The position numbers and the translations under genes were made by a program. Shown one piece after another: positions 9,723-20,562 of a stretch of 21,627 nucleotides of DNA. The stretch is from a virus. Location: IMG/VR virus record IMGVR_UViG_3300032046_000248, positions 1 to 21,627 of that record; one strand, 5' to 3'. Each line of letters opens with the position of its first letter. Positions within the stretch are counted from its first letter, which is position 1. The notes beneath the pieces are model-generated. The model searched no databases. It was not told the DNA's origin and saw only the letters and a list, made by a program, of their open reading frames with translations.

Positions 9723-10049
9723 ATGAACTTTGAAACTATCGTAACCGCAGGTGGAACCACTGCCGCTATCGTACAGGGAATCAAGTGGCTATGGAGAAAG
9801 TTTGTAGCCAAGAATATGCTGTATGAATTTCCTGCATGGTTCTATGCACTATCAGTACCAGTTCTAAATATTCTGGTGGTTCCTTTACTAGCTATTGTAG
9901 GCTTCACAGGATTTGCTATGCCAACTGATTGGACTGGTTGGGTACAGAATATTATTCAGGTACTTATTGGTACTGTAATTTCATTCGTTACTTACAACGA
10001 GGCTATTAGACCTTTCAATGTATACAGGGCGGAGTTAGCCGCAAAATAA
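9723..10049 (+). CDS. Two-helix membrane protein, holin-like
   Basis: 108 aa with two hydrophobic segments: about 40-65 (FYALSVPVLNILVVPLLAIVG...) and 76-93 (VQNIIQVLIGTVISFVTY), and basic residues between residues 20 and 30. Size and topology fit a holin, but no lysin gene is adjacent, so membrane protein is the safe call. AAAGGAG precedes the ATG. It is the last gene before the tRNA/RNA region. Confidence 0.65.
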   Translation: MNFETIVTAGGTTAAIVQGIKWLWRKFVAKNMLYEFPAWFYALSVPVLNILVVPLLAIVGFTGFAMPTDWTGWVQNIIQVLIGTVISFVTYNEAIRPFNVYRAELAAK

Positions 10050-10056
10050 TTGCTTC

Positions 10057-10085
10057 TTGCATAAAATCAAACTTTATGCTATAAT
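10057..10085 (+). promoter_or_regulatory. Sigma70-type promoter 1 of the RNA region
   Basis: TTGCAT (10057-10062), 17-nt spacer, TATAAT (10080-10085). It lies just after the membrane protein gene and reads into the leader hairpins and tRNA array. Confidence 0.75.
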
Positions 10086-10134
10086 AGAGGTAAGAATGAA
10101 TGAAAAAGAGGCAAAAAGAAGTAGAAATTGCCCC

Positions 10135-10163
10135 TTGACAAATGAAAAGAACGGGTGTATAAT
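10135..10163 (+). promoter_or_regulatory. Sigma70-type promoter 2 of the RNA region (full consensus)
   Basis: TTGACA (10135-10140), exactly 17 nt, TATAAT (10158-10163). The expected start, about 10170, falls at the first base pairs of an 11-bp stem, so the transcript would begin with a base-paired 5' end. Confidence 0.88.
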
Positions 10164-10168
10164 TAGTA

Positions 10169-10335
10169 CAAGATAAGGTAATACCATGTGTGCCGTTTAG
10201 AACCTCCTTTCGATTTGACAAACACCTTATCTTGATAAAGTCCGGTGGTATTGGTTAAGAGAATTCCACCAGCCGGACAGTAAGACAGGAGAGTGGCAAG
10301 CATAAGTTACGTTGATCACGCCTCTACCACTCTCC
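10169..10335 (+). ncRNA. Structured leader RNA with three hairpins and a 16S-tail mimic
   Basis: This roughly 170-nt stretch between promoter 2 and the first tRNA folds into three stems in series: 10169-10179 with 10224-10234 (11 bp), 10241-10249 with 10268-10277 (9 bp, one bulge), and 10288-10296 with 10327-10335 (9 bp). The loop of the first contains ACCTCCTTTC (10202-10211), the same bases as the anti-Shine-Dalgarno end of 16S rRNA in many bacteria. No open reading frame of note is present. It could be a separate small RNA or a leader cut off when the first tRNA is processed. Confidence 0.6.
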
Positions 10336-10340
10336 ACTAT

Positions 10341-10414
10341 CTGGGATTAGCTCAGTCCGGCAGAGCACTCGCTTTGGGAGCGAGGGGCCACAGGTCCAAA
10401 TCCTGTATCCTAGA
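10341..10414 (+). tRNA. tRNA-Pro(TGG)
   Basis: Complete cloverleaf: acceptor CTGGGAT/ATCCTAG, D-stem GCTC/GAGC, anticodon stem CTCGC/GCGAG with loop TTTGGGA, T-arm ACAGG/CCTGT. The T-loop is TCCAAAT, with C at position 55. CCA is not encoded. A structured RNA element starts 2 nt after it. Confidence 0.93.
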
Positions 10415-10416
10415 CT

Positions 10417-10478
10417 AGATTGCCCACAGCAACACATATAAAACCTTCAAATTGGATTGAAAATGTTAACGGCAATCT
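10417..10478 (+). ncRNA. CAGCAAC-family RNA element E1
   Basis: 62 nt closed by an 8-bp perfect stem AGATTGCC/GGCAATCT. The 5' strand is followed by CACAGCAACACATATAAAA, then a hairpin TTCAA/TTGAA (10446-10450 with 10457-10461) and TTAAC just before the 3' strand. It begins 2 nt after tRNA-Pro. Elements E5 and E6 share this layout closely. Confidence 0.6.
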
Positions 10479-10492
10479 GTGATATTATAGTA

Positions 10493-10567
10493 AGGCTACA
10501 CACTGCAACACATACAATTGGTAAAGCTAAACGCTTATGGGTTCAAACCCCAAAATTTATGTAGCCT
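10493..10567 (+). ncRNA. CAGCAAC-family RNA element E2 with T-arm-like hairpin
   Basis: 75 nt closed by AGGCTACA/TGTAGCCT (8 bp). The motif CTGCAACACATA follows the 5' strand, then a small AAGC/GCTT hairpin and a T-arm-like hairpin TGGG-TTCAAAC-CCCA. The T-arm lies 8 nt from the acceptor-like strand, so it is not a normal tRNA. It is best seen as a tRNA-like member of the element family. Confidence 0.5.
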
Positions 10568-10579
10568 GATGAATCATTT

Positions 10580-10659
10580 GACTTCTTACAGCAACAAAAA
10601 ATGCAGCAATGCAACTTACAGTTGAGCCCCAGGGCTCCATCGTTTCAAGAGGAGAAGTC
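10580..10659 (+). ncRNA. CAGCAAC-family RNA element E3
   Basis: 80 nt closed by GACTTCT/AGAAGTC (7 bp). The 5' strand is followed by TACAGCAACAAAAAA, then TGCA-GCAA-TGCA and GAGCC-CCAG-GGCTC hairpins. A competing hairpin GAGG/CCTC overlaps its 3' strand. The rest of the gap to the next tRNA (10660-10711) holds only a weak ATACT/AGTAT hairpin. Confidence 0.5.
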
Positions 10660-10711
10660 CTCCCCCTCAAAGAGAGAAAATACTAGAAGTCAGTATTGTA
10701 CTTTTACATAT

Positions 10712-10787
10712 TGCGGGATACAGTAGTCCGGTCTAACTGGAGGGTCTCATAAACCCTGTATCGTGAGTTCGAATCTCACTCCCGCAA
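10712..10787 (+). tRNA. tRNA-Met or Ile2 (CAT)
   Basis: Acceptor TGCGGGA/TCCCGCA, D-stem CAGT/ACTG, anticodon stem AGGGT/ACCCT with loop CTCATAA, T-arm GTGAG-TTCGAAT-CTCAC. CAT may be elongator Met or an Ile(AUA) tRNA with modified C34. An Ile(TAT) gene elsewhere in the window already reads AUA, which favours Met. Confidence 0.92.
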
Positions 10788-10790
10788 CCT

Positions 10791-10860
10791 AAGGTTTTAT
10801 CAGCAAGTTTCCCCTCAACTCCCCACCCCTAACGGAGTGGGTGAGAGAATAAACTGCTTA
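10791..10860 (+). ncRNA. Structured spacer E4 with CAGCAA motif
   Basis: It begins 3 nt after the tRNA, with TATCAGCAAG following the first bases. The likely stem is AGCA-GTTT (10802-10810, one bulge) with AAAC-TGCT (10851-10858), enclosing a CCCAC/GTGGG hairpin (10822-10826 with 10837-10841). It is the least typical member of the family. Confidence 0.35.
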
Positions 10861-10863
10861 TTT

Positions 10864-10956
10864 GCCAAAGAGATTGCTCATGGATGAGCAAGTAATCAGT
10901 AATGATTATTAACAGCAATCTTAACATATATAGAGGTTCGAATCCTCTCTTTGGCT
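10864..10956 (+). ncRNA. tRNA-like RNA without an anticodon arm, enclosing a family-type stem
   Basis: 93 nt. Acceptor-like stem GCCAAAG/CTTTGGC with T at the discriminator position, and a perfect T-arm AGAGG-TTCGAAT-CCTCT. In place of the D and anticodon arms is an 8-bp stem AGATTGCT/AGCAATCT (10871-10878 with 10914-10921) that holds a hairpin TAATCA-GTAA-TGATTA and TTAAC before its 3' strand, the same end as E1 and E6. No 5-bp stem with a 7-nt anticodon loop can be drawn. The alternative, a degenerate tRNA with a D-arm TTGC/GCAA, leaves the middle unexplained. The layout recalls tmRNA or bacterial Y RNAs with a tRNA-like module. Confidence 0.65.
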
Positions 10957-10958
10957 CT

Positions 10959-11013
10959 AGGCTTCACACAGCAACTCATAAAATACAACTGTTAATTGTA
11001 AAAATCGAAGCCT
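10959..11013 (+). ncRNA. CAGCAAC-family RNA element E5
   Basis: 55 nt closed by AGGCTTC/GAAGCCT (7 bp), starting 2 nt after the tRNA-like RNA. ACACAGCAACTCATAAAA follows the 5' strand, then hairpin TACAA-CTGTTAA-TTGTA. Five T follow the 3' strand, so it could also slow transcription. Confidence 0.6.
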
Positions 11014-11019
11014 GTTTTT

Positions 11020-11092
11020 GTTGGTGTAGTTCAGCGGTTAGAACGCTTCTCTGATAAGGAAGAAGTCGCTAGTCCGAATCTAGCCATCAACA
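11020..11092 (+). tRNA. tRNA-Ile(GAT)
   Basis: Acceptor GTTGGTG/CATCAAC, D-stem GTTC/GAAC, anticodon stem CTTCT/GGAAG with loop CTGATAA, T-stem GCTAG/CTAGC. The T-loop is TCCGAAT (C55). The T-arm is identical to that of tRNA-Asn in this window. Confidence 0.93.
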
Positions 11093-11095
11093 CCT

Positions 11096-11154
11096 AGCTT
11101 GCATACAGCAACACATAAAAAACTTCTGACATAAGAAAATTTTAACGCAAGCTG
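11096..11154 (+). ncRNA. CAGCAAC-family RNA element E6
   Basis: Closed by AGCTTGC/GCAAGCT (7 bp), starting 3 nt after tRNA-Ile. ATACAGCAACACATAAAAAAC follows the 5' strand (11103 on), then a TTCT/AGAA hairpin and TTTTAAC before the 3' strand. It is the last element before the Ro-like gene. Confidence 0.6.
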
Positions 11155-11189
11155 ACAATTTATATAGTAGTTAGAAAAACCAATTTAGT

Positions 11190-11226
11190 TAGTTTCCGCC
11201 AACAAAAAAAATCCAATCGGAAACTA
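11190..11226 (+). promoter_or_regulatory. 5' UTR hairpin just before the Ro-like gene
   Basis: A 9-bp perfect stem TAGTTTCCG/CGGAAACTA (11190-11198 with 11218-11226) with a 19-nt A-rich loop ends 1-2 nt before the AAAGGA ribosome site. It could be a control element, for example for binding by the encoded protein, or simply protect the mRNA end. Confidence 0.5.
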
Positions 11227-11242
11227 GAAAGGATGGTACACT

Positions 11243-12667
11243 ATGAGGACTAACAGTTTTCTAAACGCACTACAGACTAGAGATGCTCTTACTGAGAATG
11301 ATATGGTAACTCATTCTACCTCAGGTAGCAGGGTTCTAGATTTGTTCTATGGTATGGGTGGGTCTCGTCAGTTGAATGAGGCCAGAATCGCAGGTATGTT
11401 CTCACAGGCTTTTATTGAGAACAGACTTCTAGCTACCAAGGCATTGTTCTATAACAGGGACGTGCGTGGTGGACAGGGAGAGAGACGCTCATTCAGAATT
11501 ATGTTTGAGTATCTATGCTATGATCATCCAGAGGTAGCAATCAAGAACATCCCTAACGTACCCTTCTACGGAAGATGGGACGACTTGTTCAATGCACTAG
11601 GAACTCCTGCAGAGAAGCCAGCTTTGGACTTTATAGCTACTGCTCTAAAGGCAGGAGACAAGCTATGTGCTAAGTGGATGCCTCGTGAGGGTAAGCACAA
11701 CTCAGCTTGGGCAAAGATTCTTCGTACCCACCTAGAGCTAACCCCAAAGCAGTATCGTAAGCTATTGGCTGGAAACACTCAGGTTATCGAGAATTTTATG
11801 TGCTCAGGGGACTGGGGAAAGATTGACTACAACCACGTTCCTTCTGTAGCTTCCAACAAGTACAGACACGCCTTCGGAAAGCACGACTTCGAGAGGTATT
11901 CAGGATGGTTGGAGAGTCTAAGCAAGCCTGAGTCAGGAAATAAGATTCATGCTGACGCTATCTTCCCACACACCATTGTTCACGGATACCTAAGTAACCA
12001 TTATGGGGGTATCAAGGGACTGGACAAGACCCTAGAGGCTCAGTGGAAGGCTCTACCTAACTATGTTCCAGATGGACACTCATTCATTCCTGTATGTGAT
12101 GTTTCAGGGTCAATGAATGGAGAGCCTATGGAGGTAAGTGTAAGTCTAGGTGTATACCTATCAGAGAGGAACAAGGGACCATTCAAGGATGCGTTCCTAA
12201 CTTTCTCAGGTCGTCCACAGCTACAGATTCTTACCGGAAATACCCTAAGAGGTAAGATTGAGCAGTTGGAGGCTTCACACTGGGATATGAACACCGACCT
12301 AGAGGCAGTATTCAAGTTGATATTGTCAAAGGCTACGTCAGGTTCAGTTCCTGCAGAGGATATGCCTGAGACCATCCTAATCATTTCCGATATGCAGTTC
12401 GACCAGTGTATCGAGAAGCCAAGCAACACGGCTATGGATATGATTAGAAGGCAGTACGAGACCGCTGGTTACAAGATTCCAAACGTGGTGTTCTGGAACG
12501 TAAGAACCTCACAGGGAATTCCTGTAAAGCTAGACGAGCAGGGTACTGCAATCGTAAGCGGATTCTCACCTAGCGTTATGAAGAATCTATTGAGTGGTGA
12601 GATGAGACCTGACGCAGTAATGCTTCGTACCTTGCTAGACCCAAGGTACGAGAGAGTAGTAATCTAA
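11243..12667 (+). CDS. DUF2828 / TROVE-vWA (Ro60-like) RNA-binding protein
   Basis: 474 aa. The N-terminal part (about 25-270) matches the DUF2828/TROVE alpha-helical repeat domain, with the signatures FYNRDVRGGQGERR (69-82), FYGRWDDLF (108-116), KWMPREGK (144-151) and DYNHVPSVASNKYRHAF (195-211). The C-terminal part is a vWA domain with a complete metal site: DVSGS (286-290), Thr351 in DMNTDLEA and Asp383 in IISDMQFD. Ro60 proteins with this pairing form a ring that binds the ends of structured or misfolded RNAs and Y RNAs, and in bacteria can tether RNA-degrading enzymes. The gene follows six small structured RNAs and a tRNA-like RNA. It prefers C/G-ending codons (GAG, AAG, TAC, AAC) more than its neighbours, suggesting high expression. 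Functional equivalence to Ro60 is inferred; DUF2828 itself is poorly characterised. Confidence 0.87.
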   Translation: MRTNSFLNALQTRDALTENDMVTHSTSGSRVLDLFYGMGGSRQLNEARIAGMFSQAFIENRLLATKALFYNRDVRGGQGERRSFRIMFEYLCYDHPEVAIKNIPNVPFYGRWDDLFNALGTPAEKPALDFIATALKAGDKLCAKWMPREGKHNSAWAKILRTHLELTPKQYRKLLAGNTQVIENFMCSGDWGKIDYNHVPSVASNKYRHAFGKHDFERYSGWLESLSKPESGNKIHADAIFPHTIVHGYLSNHYGGIKGLDKTLEAQWKALPNYVPDGHSFIPVCDVSGSMNGEPMEVSVSLGVYLSERNKGPFKDAFLTFSGRPQLQILTGNTLRGKIEQLEASHWDMNTDLEAVFKLILSKATSGSVPAEDMPETILIISDMQFDQCIEKPSNTAMDMIRRQYETAGYKIPNVVFWNVRTSQGIPVKLDEQGTAIVSGFSPSVMKNLLSGEMRPDAVMLRTLLDPRYERVVI

Positions 12668-13173: not shown

Positions 13174-13331
13174 AAATAAGAATGTGAGCCAGAGGATTCA
13201 TAGGACAATCCGGTATGGGATAAGCACCTAGGCTGACGGGAAGGCATACACTAAACGGTGGAGTAATCATTCCGGTGGACGGTCAATACTTACACTAGAG
13301 CCAAAAAGACTTTTGTCCGTCATTCTTATTT
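13174..13331 (+). ncRNA. 158-nt structured RNA closed by an 11-bp stem
   Basis: AAATAAGAATG (13174-13184) pairs perfectly with CATTCTTATTT (13321-13331). The interior is rich in short complementary runs (for example GGACAATCC and GGTGGAGTAATCATTCC) and has no reading frame. It fills the whole gap between tRNA-Gly and tRNA-Arg(ACG), leaving 1 and 3 nt. No known RNA family is recognised. Confidence 0.55.
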
Positions 13332-13334
13332 TAT

Positions 13335-13406: not shown

Positions 13407-13409
13407 CCT

Positions 13410-13487
13410 AGTATTCCTGAAAAGCATAGAAACATAAGACAATGAGGACAACAATCTCCCTAGCCGTCTGCTAAATAACGGAATACT
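13410..13487 (+). ncRNA. Closed structured spacer before the suppressor tRNA
   Basis: 78 nt closed by AGTATTCC/GGAATACT (8 bp), starting 3 nt after tRNA-Arg. AAGCATAGAAACATAAGAC follows the 5' strand and AAATAAC precedes the 3' strand, loosely like the E1/E6 pattern; an inner AGAC/GTCT stem is possible. A divergent family member is possible. Confidence 0.45.
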
Positions 13488-13490
13488 TAT

Positions 13491-13561
13491 GCTTTGGTAG
13501 CTCAAAGGCAGAGCGAGTGTCTCTAAAACACTTTATAGGGGTTCAATTCCCCTTCAAAGCG
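13491..13561 (+). tRNA. Amber suppressor tRNA, anticodon CTA
   Basis: Acceptor GCTTTGG/TCAAAGC, D-stem GCTC/GAGC, anticodon stem AGTGT/ACACT with loop CTCTAAA, T-arm AGGGG-TTCAATT-CCCCT, discriminator G. Loop positions 34-36 are CTA, which reads the stop codon TAG. GTCTCTAAAAC in this arm differs by one base from GTCTCCAAAAC of the window's tRNA-Trp, and both have G73, so it may derive from tRNA-Trp. In E. coli, tRNA-Trp mutated to CUA (Su+7) is charged mainly with Gln. The amino acid inserted here cannot be read from sequence. Confidence 0.92.
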
Positions 13562-13572
13562 CACATCTTTTT

Positions 13573-15198: not shown

Positions 15199-15270
15199 TA
15201 CCTCGTAGCTCAACGGTGGAGCGGGAAGCTGTTAACTTCAGGGTTGCTAGTCCGAATCTAGCCGAGGTAG
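15199..15270 (+). tRNA. tRNA-Asn(GTT)
   Basis: Acceptor TACCTCG/CGAGGTA, D-stem GCTC/GAGC, anticodon loop CTGTTAA, T-stem GCTAG/CTAGC with loop TCCGAAT (C55), discriminator G. Confidence 0.9.
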
Positions 15271-16434: not shown

Positions 16435-16437
16435 CTG

Positions 16438-16583
16438 CCCGCAGAATATAGGAAATCTCGTTCACAAAGACGTAGTGTAAGGGAGCCAAGACAAAGCTAT
16501 AACTCACCGAATTGGTATAAATCGGAAAGCCTGAAATACGGCCCTGAGGACAACATTACACGGATTAGTGACCTTACTGCGGG
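16438..16583 (+). ncRNA. 146-nt closed structured RNA between tRNA-Leu and tRNA-Asp
   Basis: CCCGCAG (16438-16444) pairs with CTGCGGG (16577-16583). The interior has short complementary runs and no convincing gene; a reading frame crosses it but also crosses the flanking tRNAs. It shares a GAGGACAACA run with the spacer at 13410-13487. Family unknown. Confidence 0.45.
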
Positions 16584-16589
16584 TTCATA

Positions 16590-16665
16590 CGGTTTGATAG
16601 CTCAAATGGATAGAGCATAGTCCTGTCAAGACTAAGGCTGTGGGATCGTACCCCATTCAGACCGC
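16590..16665 (+). tRNA. tRNA-Asp(GTC)
   Basis: Acceptor CGGTTTG/CAGACCG, anticodon stem TAGTC/GACTA with loop CTGTCAA. The T-loop is ATCGTAC, departing from the TTCGA consensus, and the discriminator is C rather than the usual G. Confidence 0.85.
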
Positions 16666-18421: not shown

Positions 18422-18423
18422 CT

Positions 18424-18498
18424 TGTACAGTATAAGCCCAAGGGTTAATCTATAGTAAGGGAAGAGGAAGCATCACCCAATAAGCAAACTCCTGTACA
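18424..18498 (+). ncRNA. Closed structured spacer between tRNA-Ile and tRNA-Arg(TCT)
   Basis: 75 nt closed by TGTACAG/CTGTACA (7 bp), 2 nt after one tRNA and 3 nt before the next. The interior is A/G-rich with weak pairing only. Confidence 0.4.
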
Positions 18499-18501
18499 TC
18501 T

Positions 18502-19977: not shown

Positions 19978-20499
19978 ATGGAGATGTCAAGAGTTTGGGC
20001 TATGCCCAACCATAATACATTTGAAATCAAACCAATAAGAGAATTTGTGCTAAAGTACCTCTCACAATCAAAATTTAGCATAGACCCTTTTGCTAGAGAC
20101 AGCAAGTTAGCAACAATTACTAATGACCTAAATCCTGATACGGATACTGGGTATCATCTATTAGCAAAGGATTTTCTTTCTGTGATGAAGGAGAGACAAA
20201 TAAAACCAGACCTGGTTATAATGGATCCTCCCTACAGTATAGGTCAGATCAAGCAGTGCTATGAAAGTTTTGGTGCCGACTTTGGACAGCATGAGGCTCA
20301 GTTTACCCCAAGTTGGGTAGAAGAACGAGACATAATCAAAGAGATATTAACAAATGGTGGTGTGGTATTGTCTTTTGGTTGGAATAGTAACTGTATGGGA
20401 AAGACAAGAGGGTTTGAAATAGTAGAAATAATGTTAGTAGCTCACGGTGGACCTCATAATGATACCATATGTGTAGCCGAAAGAAAAAATGCCGCTTAA
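19978..20499 (+). CDS. Small adenine-type DNA methyltransferase-like protein
   Basis: 173 aa, starting MEMSRVWAMPNHNTF; AAGGA lies 7 nt before the ATG. SIDPFARDSKLATITNDLNP (about 35-54) resembles the SAM-binding region of a compact phage/plasmid family, LVIMDPPYSIGQ (about 80-91) is the amino-methyltransferase DPPY motif IV, and SFGWNSNCMGKTRGFEI...HGGPHNDTI is the family's conserved end. It probably methylates adenine (or cytosine N4) in DNA, perhaps to avoid restriction; no target-recognition domain is seen. Its last codons GCC-GCT-TAA are also the first 9 bases of tRNA-Thr(TGT). Confidence 0.78.
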   Translation: MEMSRVWAMPNHNTFEIKPIREFVLKYLSQSKFSIDPFARDSKLATITNDLNPDTDTGYHLLAKDFLSVMKERQIKPDLVIMDPPYSIGQIKQCYESFGADFGQHEAQFTPSWVEERDIIKEILTNGGVVLSFGWNSNCMGKTRGFEIVEIMLVAHGGPHNDTICVAERKNAA

Positions 20500-20562
20500 A
20501 CATATACGGTGATGCGCCTCCCTTGTAAAGAGGAAAACCGGATTCGAGTTCCGGAGGTGGCT
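20491..20562 (+). tRNA. tRNA-Thr(TGT), overlapping a protein gene
   Basis: Acceptor GCCGCTT/AGGTGGC, anticodon loop CTTGTAA on CCTCC/AGAGG (inner pair mismatched), T-arm CCGGA-TTCGAGT-TCCGG, discriminator T as in the other Thr tRNAs. The first 9 bases contain the methyltransferase stop codon. Confidence 0.85.

Follow-up and report, generated by a model that had tools for sequence, protein, structure and literature searches.

What is the repeated RNA element that punctuates the tRNA array of the virus record IMGVR_UViG_3300032046_000248, and with which protein does it work? The stretch analysed, called the window here, is the whole 21,627-base IMG/VR virus record. ARAGORN finds 27 tRNAs in it, and between tRNA-Pro (10341-10415) and an open reading frame (ORF) starting at 11243 sits an RNA cluster of six stand-alone elements, three clear (E1, E5 and E6), two longer (E2 and E3) and one weak (E4), together with one tRNA-like variant. 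An earlier note on this DNA had read the cluster as a selected RNA structure of no recognised family. Both halves of that claim are borne out: the compensatory pattern recurs on many other phage contigs, and the only sequences in the window that reach an Rfam gathering score are ordinary tRNAs. What the note did not contain is a Ro60-like gene downstream of the elements, interiors that mimic tRNAs, and a sub-threshold likeness to the Dictyostelium Class I RNA and, in relatives, to the bacterial Y RNA YrlA. We think it likely that the elements are phage Y-type RNAs partnered with the adjacent Ro60-like ring protein and displaying tRNA mimics. The RNA structure with its covariation, the gene neighbourhood and the tRNA mimicry were computed here, and the Ro60 fold of the protein is predicted.

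Within the window, E1, E5 and E6 carry a near-identical unpaired strand between closing stems that are unrelated in sequence. E2 and E3, which the earlier note had fitted to the same scheme with longer interiors, do share the layout, an 8-bp and a 9-bp stem followed by CAGCAA or CTGCAA; a counterpart of E2 is present in the relative L114, and the stem and motif of E3 recur there. The closing stems and the shared ACAGCAAC..CATA..AAA strand described for 10417-11154 held up, whereas the TTAAC end ascribed to the elements is found in E1 and E6 and not in E5, which ends AAAATC. E1, E4, E5 and E6 directly follow a tRNA or the tRNA-like RNA at 10864-10956, as had been observed, with a gap of 1-2 nucleotides (nt). 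The window contains exactly three copies of the string ACAGCAACNCATA, all on the plus strand and one each in E1, E5 and E6, whereas the reversed sequence contains none; CAGCAAC occurs six times where 1.75 copies are expected. Fold z-scores are -2.42 (E1), -1.90 (E2), -3.29 (E3), -2.50 (E4), -4.19 (the tRNA-like RNA), -2.18 (E5) and -2.77 (E6).

Searches of viral contigs extended this pattern to other phages. The first search pattern, YACAGCAACNCATANAA, matched at least 119 stretches, most of which look like chance matches in coding DNA; the useful loci were L114 and L011/L048/L086. L114 is a syntenic relative with the same ORF immediately after its roughly seven elements, one of which is embedded in a tRNA; L011/L048/L086 belong to a different phage whose elements read TAGGNNNN-NNN-CAGCAA-...-NNNNCCTGTTA. 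A second pattern, TAGGN7CAGCAAN{10,40}AACNNNNCCTGT, fixes TAGG, CAGCAA, AAC and CCTGT only; because it leaves four stem positions unconstrained, pairing at those positions is a test of covariation. This pattern matched 71 viral-contig stretches, 58 of them with a fully paired match. The free positions are fully complementary (4/4) in 40 of 51 unique matches, which present 12 different stems. When each distinct stem is counted once, 12 of 23 are fully paired, against a shuffle mean of 0.64 and a maximum of 4 in 2000 shuffles, so that compensatory change is found on independent loci as well as within the one cluster. Searches for direct DNA relatives among GenBank phages returned tRNAs: a near search with the whole window found tRNA-Ile only, and in a distant search with 10000-11300 the best 20 of 74 records were all tRNA-Pro. 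Small ribozymes and group I introns gave no Rfam match within the window at E<=1.

Of the 144 non-redundant elements in the catalogue, 73 are short (43-65 nt) and the others measure 73-139 or 154-233 nt; consecutive elements are often about 12 nt apart. This set, used for the loop and length statistics, may retain a few false members. A distinct long subclass of about 150-165 nt, often reading GGATCG GTACAGCAAC ... CTATGAAC ... CGATCC TGTT, is conserved upstream of the Ro-like gene (in L204, L222, L232, L233, L251, L261, L269 and others).

The ORF beyond the cluster supplies the candidate partner. Its relatives are annotated with domains that do not name Ro60: among 37 members of the family the Pfam families reported at E<=1 are DUF2828 and DUF7788 and do not include TROVE (PF05731), the Pfam Ro60 vWA domain is matched in one member at E 0.13, NCBIfam has no family for the protein, and phmmer against solved structures gave no match. 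Because a profile of the 37 sequences reached TROVE at E 0.022 only, the Ro60 identity rests on fold comparison. An AlphaFold model built from the 37 viral-contig sequences has a pLDDT (predicted local distance difference test score) of 80.8 (without an alignment it is 38, unusable), and at E<=0.001 this model matches Ro60/TROVE structures only. The first ten entries of the ranking are all Ro60/TROVE, with Z 14.3-19.2 over 386-409 residues, and the next row stands at 11.1. Deinococcus Rsr (2nvo), Xenopus Ro (1yvr) and the Ro60 of Thermus phage phiLo (9l5y) match over the whole length with Z 14.3, 17.7 and 18.6 at a sequence identity of 10-16%, and the vWA-like DxSGS motif is invariant in the phage proteins, as in Ro60/TROVE. 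The protein is thus predicted to have the ring-plus-vWA fold of Ro60. Relatives occur in 682 GenBank phage records. In one record (G001, the contig of L011) the Ro-like match is split, 30184-30603 and 31512-32561, as if the gene were interrupted, and the related L086 has a short Ro-like ORF from 3243.

Elements and Ro-like genes keep company. Reversed-sequence controls had given 6 matches against 240 and later 4 against 264, and we judged them too lenient; since at least 28 of 171 unique candidates resemble chance matches in coding DNA (mostly from L001-L103, the GC-rich L005 alone giving five), the opposite strand is the fairer control. In 80 loci picked by the Ro-like protein alone, the best 80 of 568 relatives, a strict scanner found 77 matches in 44 loci, all on the strand of the Ro-like gene, with none on the opposite strand and none in reversed sequence; two of the 77 fall within the Ro gene and are false. 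Element density within 1 kb of the gene is 4.46 (upstream) and 2.50 (downstream) per 10 kb, and farther out it drops about 10- and 20-fold, to 0.45 and 0.12 per 10 kb. An element lies within 1 kb of the gene in 40 of the 80 loci. Chance repeats are ruled out by the unconstrained stem positions together with the strand count (77 vs 0), and a mobile DNA element was set aside, the stems differing among copies and all 77 matches being co-oriented with the Ro gene.

Looked at from the side of the elements, 34 of 50 element-bearing records encode a PHROG_850 protein, compared with 1 of 28 other records of the first motif scan and with none of 12 records holding an unpaired pattern match, although several of these 12 are short (3.6-4.7 kb), which lowers the chance that the gene is present and so tells against our reading. 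The 50 records come from the 58 paired loci after removal of those on the same contig (L170, L192, L195), near-identical ones (L048, L086, L185) and apparently shared copies, judged by match length and spacing (L151, L186). The control of 12 leaves out L164 and L172, which have paired elements, and L183, which is unpaired; L164 encodes a Ro-like gene and L172 does not. L024, a first-pattern locus listed as a control, also encodes one.

Named phages show the same arrangement. In the stretches fetched from GenBank, 11 of 17 Ro-bearing records contain elements, eight of them within 1 kb of the gene (the E. coli phage Alf5, the Listeria phage AG20, F361, BUCT194, EF5, BUCT-ZZ01, S13 and Faith1) and three farther away (BcoS-136, phiM12 and KVP40). 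The elements of S13, Faith1 and phiM12 were accepted by eye, and EF5, BcoS-136, phiM12 and Faith1 have variant ends; for Faith1, DLP6, phiM12, S13 and Forza the loose scanner was no better than the reversed control, and these were judged by eye from position and tRNA-like interior. The single negative control, Providencia phage PR1, which has a tRNA array in a stretch without an annotated Ro-like gene, gave one doubtful match. Alf5 has four elements behind its Ro-like gene, with predicted ends AG..CTGG; in this phage (L278, 14321-14644) the annotated hypothetical protein BIZ90_gp133 runs antisense over two elements and may not be a gene. Listeria phage AG20, which we take to be a close relative of the P100-like phage CKA15, has three elements directly upstream of its Ro-like gene. 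In passages of a study of CKA15, very high transcription is described for three regions that lack annotation and lie upstream of the Ro-like gene, no more than 2 kb from it; the authors of that study propose Y RNAs there, and they detected the Ro-like protein in purified virions with 20 peptides and 57.1% coverage (PMC12282133). By analogy, the three transcribed regions would correspond to the three AG20 elements, and the Ro particle might be packaged in CKA15 virions.

The interiors of the elements point towards tRNA. Seven-nucleotide loops of the anticodon-loop form CUNNNAA occur in 19 of 73 short elements (shuffle mean 0.36, maximum 3 in 300 shuffles), and anticodon-like loops in 12 of 71 long ones (shuffle mean 0.84, maximum 4). 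Among the anticodons implied across the two classes are Lys UUU, Arg UCU, Thr UGU, Ser GCU and UGA, Asn GUU and Ile GAU, and the E5 loop, CUGUUAA, is that of the phage's own tRNA-Asn at 15199. Other elements have AUUGG loops, a T-arm only or no predicted hairpin. Many long elements, read by eye, hold in order an optional anticodon arm, a T-arm, a loop-sealed acceptor stem and a D-arm, and so amount to a circularly permuted tRNA. The window has no more than remnants of this module, a T-arm-like hairpin in E2 and an anticodon-like arm in E5.

A permuted tRNA module is also what the Rfam model of YrlA (RF02553) recognises in these elements, at 33.4 bits in L086, 38.6 in L124 and 48.9 at best. YrlA matches are found in 18 of 20 records, but because 13 of 14 control genomes also match at E<=1 only the strong matches count, and the cut-off of 69 bits is reached in none of the 20. 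Like YrlA, the phage elements lie beside a Ro60 relative, are closed by an end-to-end stem and, in many long copies, contain a permuted tRNA. Unlike YrlA, their outer scaffold has another sequence (AG-stem, CAGCAA, A-rich strand, stem-CTGT), they occur in several copies through a tRNA array, their interiors shrink to a single anticodon arm or other hairpin, and they include inside-out forms embedded in tRNAs. In the YrlA model structure the tRNA module is joined to the rest through a 3-bp stem, which we take to be the remnant of an anticodon stem.

The embedded forms have the scaffold hairpin and CAGCA within a tRNA and were found at nine places (14 matches minus five apparent ordinary tRNAs with chance hairpins, removed by eye). 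In the window copy, at 10864-10956, an inside-out scaffold (AGTAATCA gtaa TGATTATT aa CAGCA) replaces the anticodon arm. As a functional tRNA this RNA scores 25.1 bits in Rfam, under the gathering cut-off of 29, it has no ARAGORN call, and its T-arm is absent from its minimum-energy fold. Five copies were selected and their borders set to restore the stem; in these, ARAGORN finds no tRNA in the uncut form but a canonical one (Asn, Asn, Asp, Ile and Gly) once the 41-48 nt lying between positions 29 and 30 are excised. All 15 pairs of positions 27-29 with 41-43 are kept, with compensatory changes, and four of the five copies have a CCA end. Left out of the five were the window copy, which lacks an anticodon arm, and L262, L287 and the first L288 copy, whose borders differ by eye. 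In Cronobacter phage S13 (L288, 7890-8132) an annotated tRNA-Ser of 121 nt and a tRNA-OTHER of 113 nt are such embedded forms. Two readings of this form suggest themselves: either the anticodon stem has received a Y-type domain as a graft, or the insert is a tiny intron.

The scaffold itself resembles an RNA from a distant source. According to passages of Kjellin et al. 2021 (PMC7919456), the Dictyostelium Class I RNA is about 60 nt long, with a covarying terminal stem, AAG..CUGU ends and a CAGCAA-like motif after the 5' strand, and is reported as unique to dictyostelids, none having been found outside. The phage elements share with this description a length of about 55-60 nt and a covarying terminal stem, besides having an A-rich loop, and they appear similar to it in their AG..CUGU ends and in an unpaired UUACAGCAA-like motif right after the 5' stem strand. 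Compensatory pairing of the terminal stem is seen in the 12 fully paired distinct stems of 23. The base before AG is T (102) or A (34) in 136 of 144 elements, AG and CTG themselves being required by the scanner, and T follows CTG in at least 114 of 144, T there having raised the scanner score. Compared by eye with the 11-nt Class I motif (T3, C6, C9, A10 and A11), E3 has all five positions and E1, E5 and E6 all except T3, C6 and C9-A11 being part of the search motif.

The Rfam model of Class I RNA, RF01414, picks E6, E5 and E1 at their bounds (23.5, 22.9 and 19.8 bits; E-values 0.08, 0.11 and 0.7). It scores 20 places at 25-36 bits in 20 hand-picked element-bearing phage records (1.67 Mb), 14 found by the element and six by the Ro-like protein, against a maximum of 18.3 in 20 other phage records (1.97 Mb) taken irrespective of base composition; the 20 places include near-identical copies and were taken without place-by-place matching to the element list, and 7 of 14 control genomes also match at E<=1. 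The best scores in the six Ro-chosen records are 27.4, 27.2, 24.1, 23.6, 19.5 and 15.0 bits, four of them above 23. The cut-off of 41.5 bits is reached in none of the 20 records (best 35.8) and not in the window (best 23.5). Because no element reaches the cut-off and the search motif shares Class I features, we do not file the elements as Class I members. There are also differences: according to the same passages of the Class I literature, a DUSE promoter element lies about 60 nt upstream there, where the phage array is headed by a sigma-70 consensus promoter, and one protein known to bind directly there, Rnp1A, is of the RRM rather than the Ro kind; the Class I RNAs, moreover, belong to dictyostelids and not to phages. 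The likeness may reflect homology or convergence. That phage elements and Class I RNAs form one Ro-bound Y-type family with a CAGCAA scaffold, shared by bacterial viruses and dictyostelids, with the Class I RNAs as Y RNAs of the DUF2828-type Ro protein there, seems to us unlikely, though if it were true the Class I RNAs, thought to be restricted to Dictyostelia and tied to multicellularity, would no longer be confined to dictyostelids.

We envision a scenario in which the elements are made as small non-coding RNAs from the transcript of the tRNA array and are partnered with the neighbouring Ro60-like ring protein. The constant scaffold, consisting of the closing stem (AG start, CTG(T) end), the CAGCAA strand and the A-rich strand before the 3' stem strand, is most likely the part that binds Ro. 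The variable interior would be a display module of tRNA pieces, whether an anticodon arm, a T-arm or else a circularly permuted tRNA with loop-sealed acceptor. It would present features of tRNA to tRNA-acting enzymes (nucleases and enzymes of modification or repair), either as a decoy or to recruit the Ro particle to them. A phage with a large tRNA array would benefit from such shielding or repair of its tRNAs. From the arrangement we infer that the elements are expressed in this phage, that the Ro-like protein binds them and that they act as decoys or in recruitment.

Several results pull the other way. E4, already called weaker in the earlier note, does not use its closing stem in the minimum-energy fold. 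YrlA has no match in the window at E<=1, and its outer stem is not found in the scaffold, the model in L124 (one copy) starting inside the element and running 15 nt beyond it with poor outer-stem pairing. Under the strict scanner 36 of the 80 Ro loci have no element. Of the 50 element-bearing records, 16 lack a PHROG_850 protein, two of these being 249.6 and 180.6 kb although all may be fragments, and a Pfam TROVE match occurs in none of the 16. Among the GenBank phages, the fetched stretches of Ochrobactrum phage OC, LR756508, Serratia phage BF, Staphylococcus phage S-CoN_Ph12 and Gordonia phage Forza have no element (in Forza, which has a Ro-like gene, none above the reversed control), and DLP6 shows only a weak one.

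How else might the elements be explained? They could be stand-alone tRNA decoys that absorb anticodon nucleases or other tRNA-targeting defences, or serve tRNA-modifying enzymes, their adjacency to Ro reflecting a shared tRNA-defence locus. Anticodon-loop mimics far exceed the shuffles, some element-bearing records have no Ro-like gene, and embedded forms duplicate isoacceptors that are already present uninterrupted in the same locus (Asn in L176, Asp in L168, Ile in L193), all as such decoys would lead one to expect. However, many interiors have no anticodon arm while the scaffold stays constant, and the elements are concentrated within 1 kb of the Ro gene (density taken relative to that gene only), and we hold this account to be improbable. 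The same three uninterrupted genes bear on the idea of a tiny intron, in which the scaffold would be an excisable 41-48-nt tRNA insert at 29/30 and the stand-alone elements its permuted version, giving circular or re-joined RNAs: because of them a graft or decoy is the more likely reading of the embedded form. Restoration of canonical tRNAs, the 15 kept pairs and the four CCA ends speak for an intron, but they come from five chosen copies with borders set to restore the stem, and a three-way junction that is never excised would account for this pairing as well; in YrlA the tRNA module is joined by a 3-bp stem whose pairs we take to be the same. Moreover, the uncut L114 copy already passes as a tRNA under the Rfam model, at 50.9 bits, permuted copies, judged by eye, seldom have a CCA at their sealed acceptor end, and short elements would be nearly exon-free. 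We regard an intron as very improbable.

Least credible to us, and to be given hardly any weight, is that the elements are processing signals or spacers of the tRNA operon, such as RNase III/E hairpins without function after cleavage. Their position between tRNAs, the spacing of about 12 nt between successive elements and the closing stems of some other spacers in the array would suit such a role, but not the conserved unpaired CAGCAA strand, the tRNA-like interiors and the tie to the Ro-like gene, and in Synechococcus phage BUCT-ZZ01 the elements lie in a stretch without annotated tRNA.

Phage Y RNAs near Ro60 are already known; Chen et al. 2014 (RNA 20:1715) reportedly described likely Y RNAs near Ro60 in more than 250 bacterial and phage species. 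Passages of the CKA15 study cite Chen et al. 2014 for mycobacteriophage Y RNAs near Ro60 (PMC12282133). The parts that seem new are the scaffold, the anticodon-arm modules, the embedded form and the Class I likeness, no description of which turned up in our searches of openly licensed papers. A phage Y-type RNA of this kind would give the DUF2828 Ro-like proteins of hundreds of phages a concrete, searchable candidate RNA partner, with exchangeable tRNA pieces as small as a single anticodon arm, and would open the role of Ro-Y particles to experiment in a fast system, E. coli K-12 with phage Alf5. The features of the window are collected in Table 1.

Table 1. RNA elements of the window, the putative promoter upstream of them and the predicted Ro60-like gene that follows (bp, base pairs; aa, amino acids)
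Feature	Position	Strand	Description
Sigma-70 consensus promoter TTGACA-17-TATAAT (putative)	10135..10163	+	12/12 consensus positions; consensus match alone; upstream of the RNA cluster
E1	10417..10478	+	8-bp closing stem AGATTGCC/GGCAATCT, CACAGCAAC strand, hairpin, TTAAC; RF01414 19.8 bits at 10418-10479
E2	10493..10567	+	8-bp stem AGGCTACA/TGTAGCCT, CTGCAAC strand; T-arm-like hairpin GGGTTCAAACCCC inside
E3	10578..10693	+	9-bp stem TTGACTTCT/AGAAGTCAG, TACAGCAAC strand, multi-hairpin long interior
E4 (weak)	10791..10856	+	AAGGTTTTAT CAGCAAG ... ATAAAC TG; immediately 3' of tRNA-Met
Embedded form, tRNA-like RNA	10864..10956	+	Paired acceptor ends, D-arm- and T-arm-like hairpins
E5	10959..11013	+	Stem AGGCTTC/GAAGCCT, ACACAGCAAC strand, anticodon-arm-like hairpin TACAA CTGTTAA TTGTA; RF01414 22.9 bits
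E6	11096..11153	+	Stem AGCTTGC/GCAAGCT, ATACAGCAAC strand, hairpin, TTAAC; RF01414 23.5 bits
Ro60-like protein (predicted fold), 474 aa	11243..12667	+	DUF2828 + DUF7788, PHROG_850 'RNA-binding protein'; 89 nt past E6

Other parts of the array drew our attention. The first transcribed region past the promoter, 10169-10234, has an 11-bp closing stem CAAGATAAGGT/ACCTTATCTTG and a loop with ACCTCCTTT, which presumably resembles the anti-Shine-Dalgarno end of 16S rRNA; a similar stem, again with ACCTCCTTT, is present in L114. Four of the 12 inter-tRNA spacers (13174-13334, 13409-13490, 16436-16590 and 18423-18501) have complementary ends of 7-11 bp (shuffle p 0.003-0.023) without CAGCAAC, and are possibly additional RNA families of the same array. 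At 13491-13562 ARAGORN calls a tRNA-Pyl with anticodon CTA, a possible amber-reading tRNA, and at 20491-20562 lies a 28th tRNA (Rfam 37.7 bits) that ARAGORN missed.

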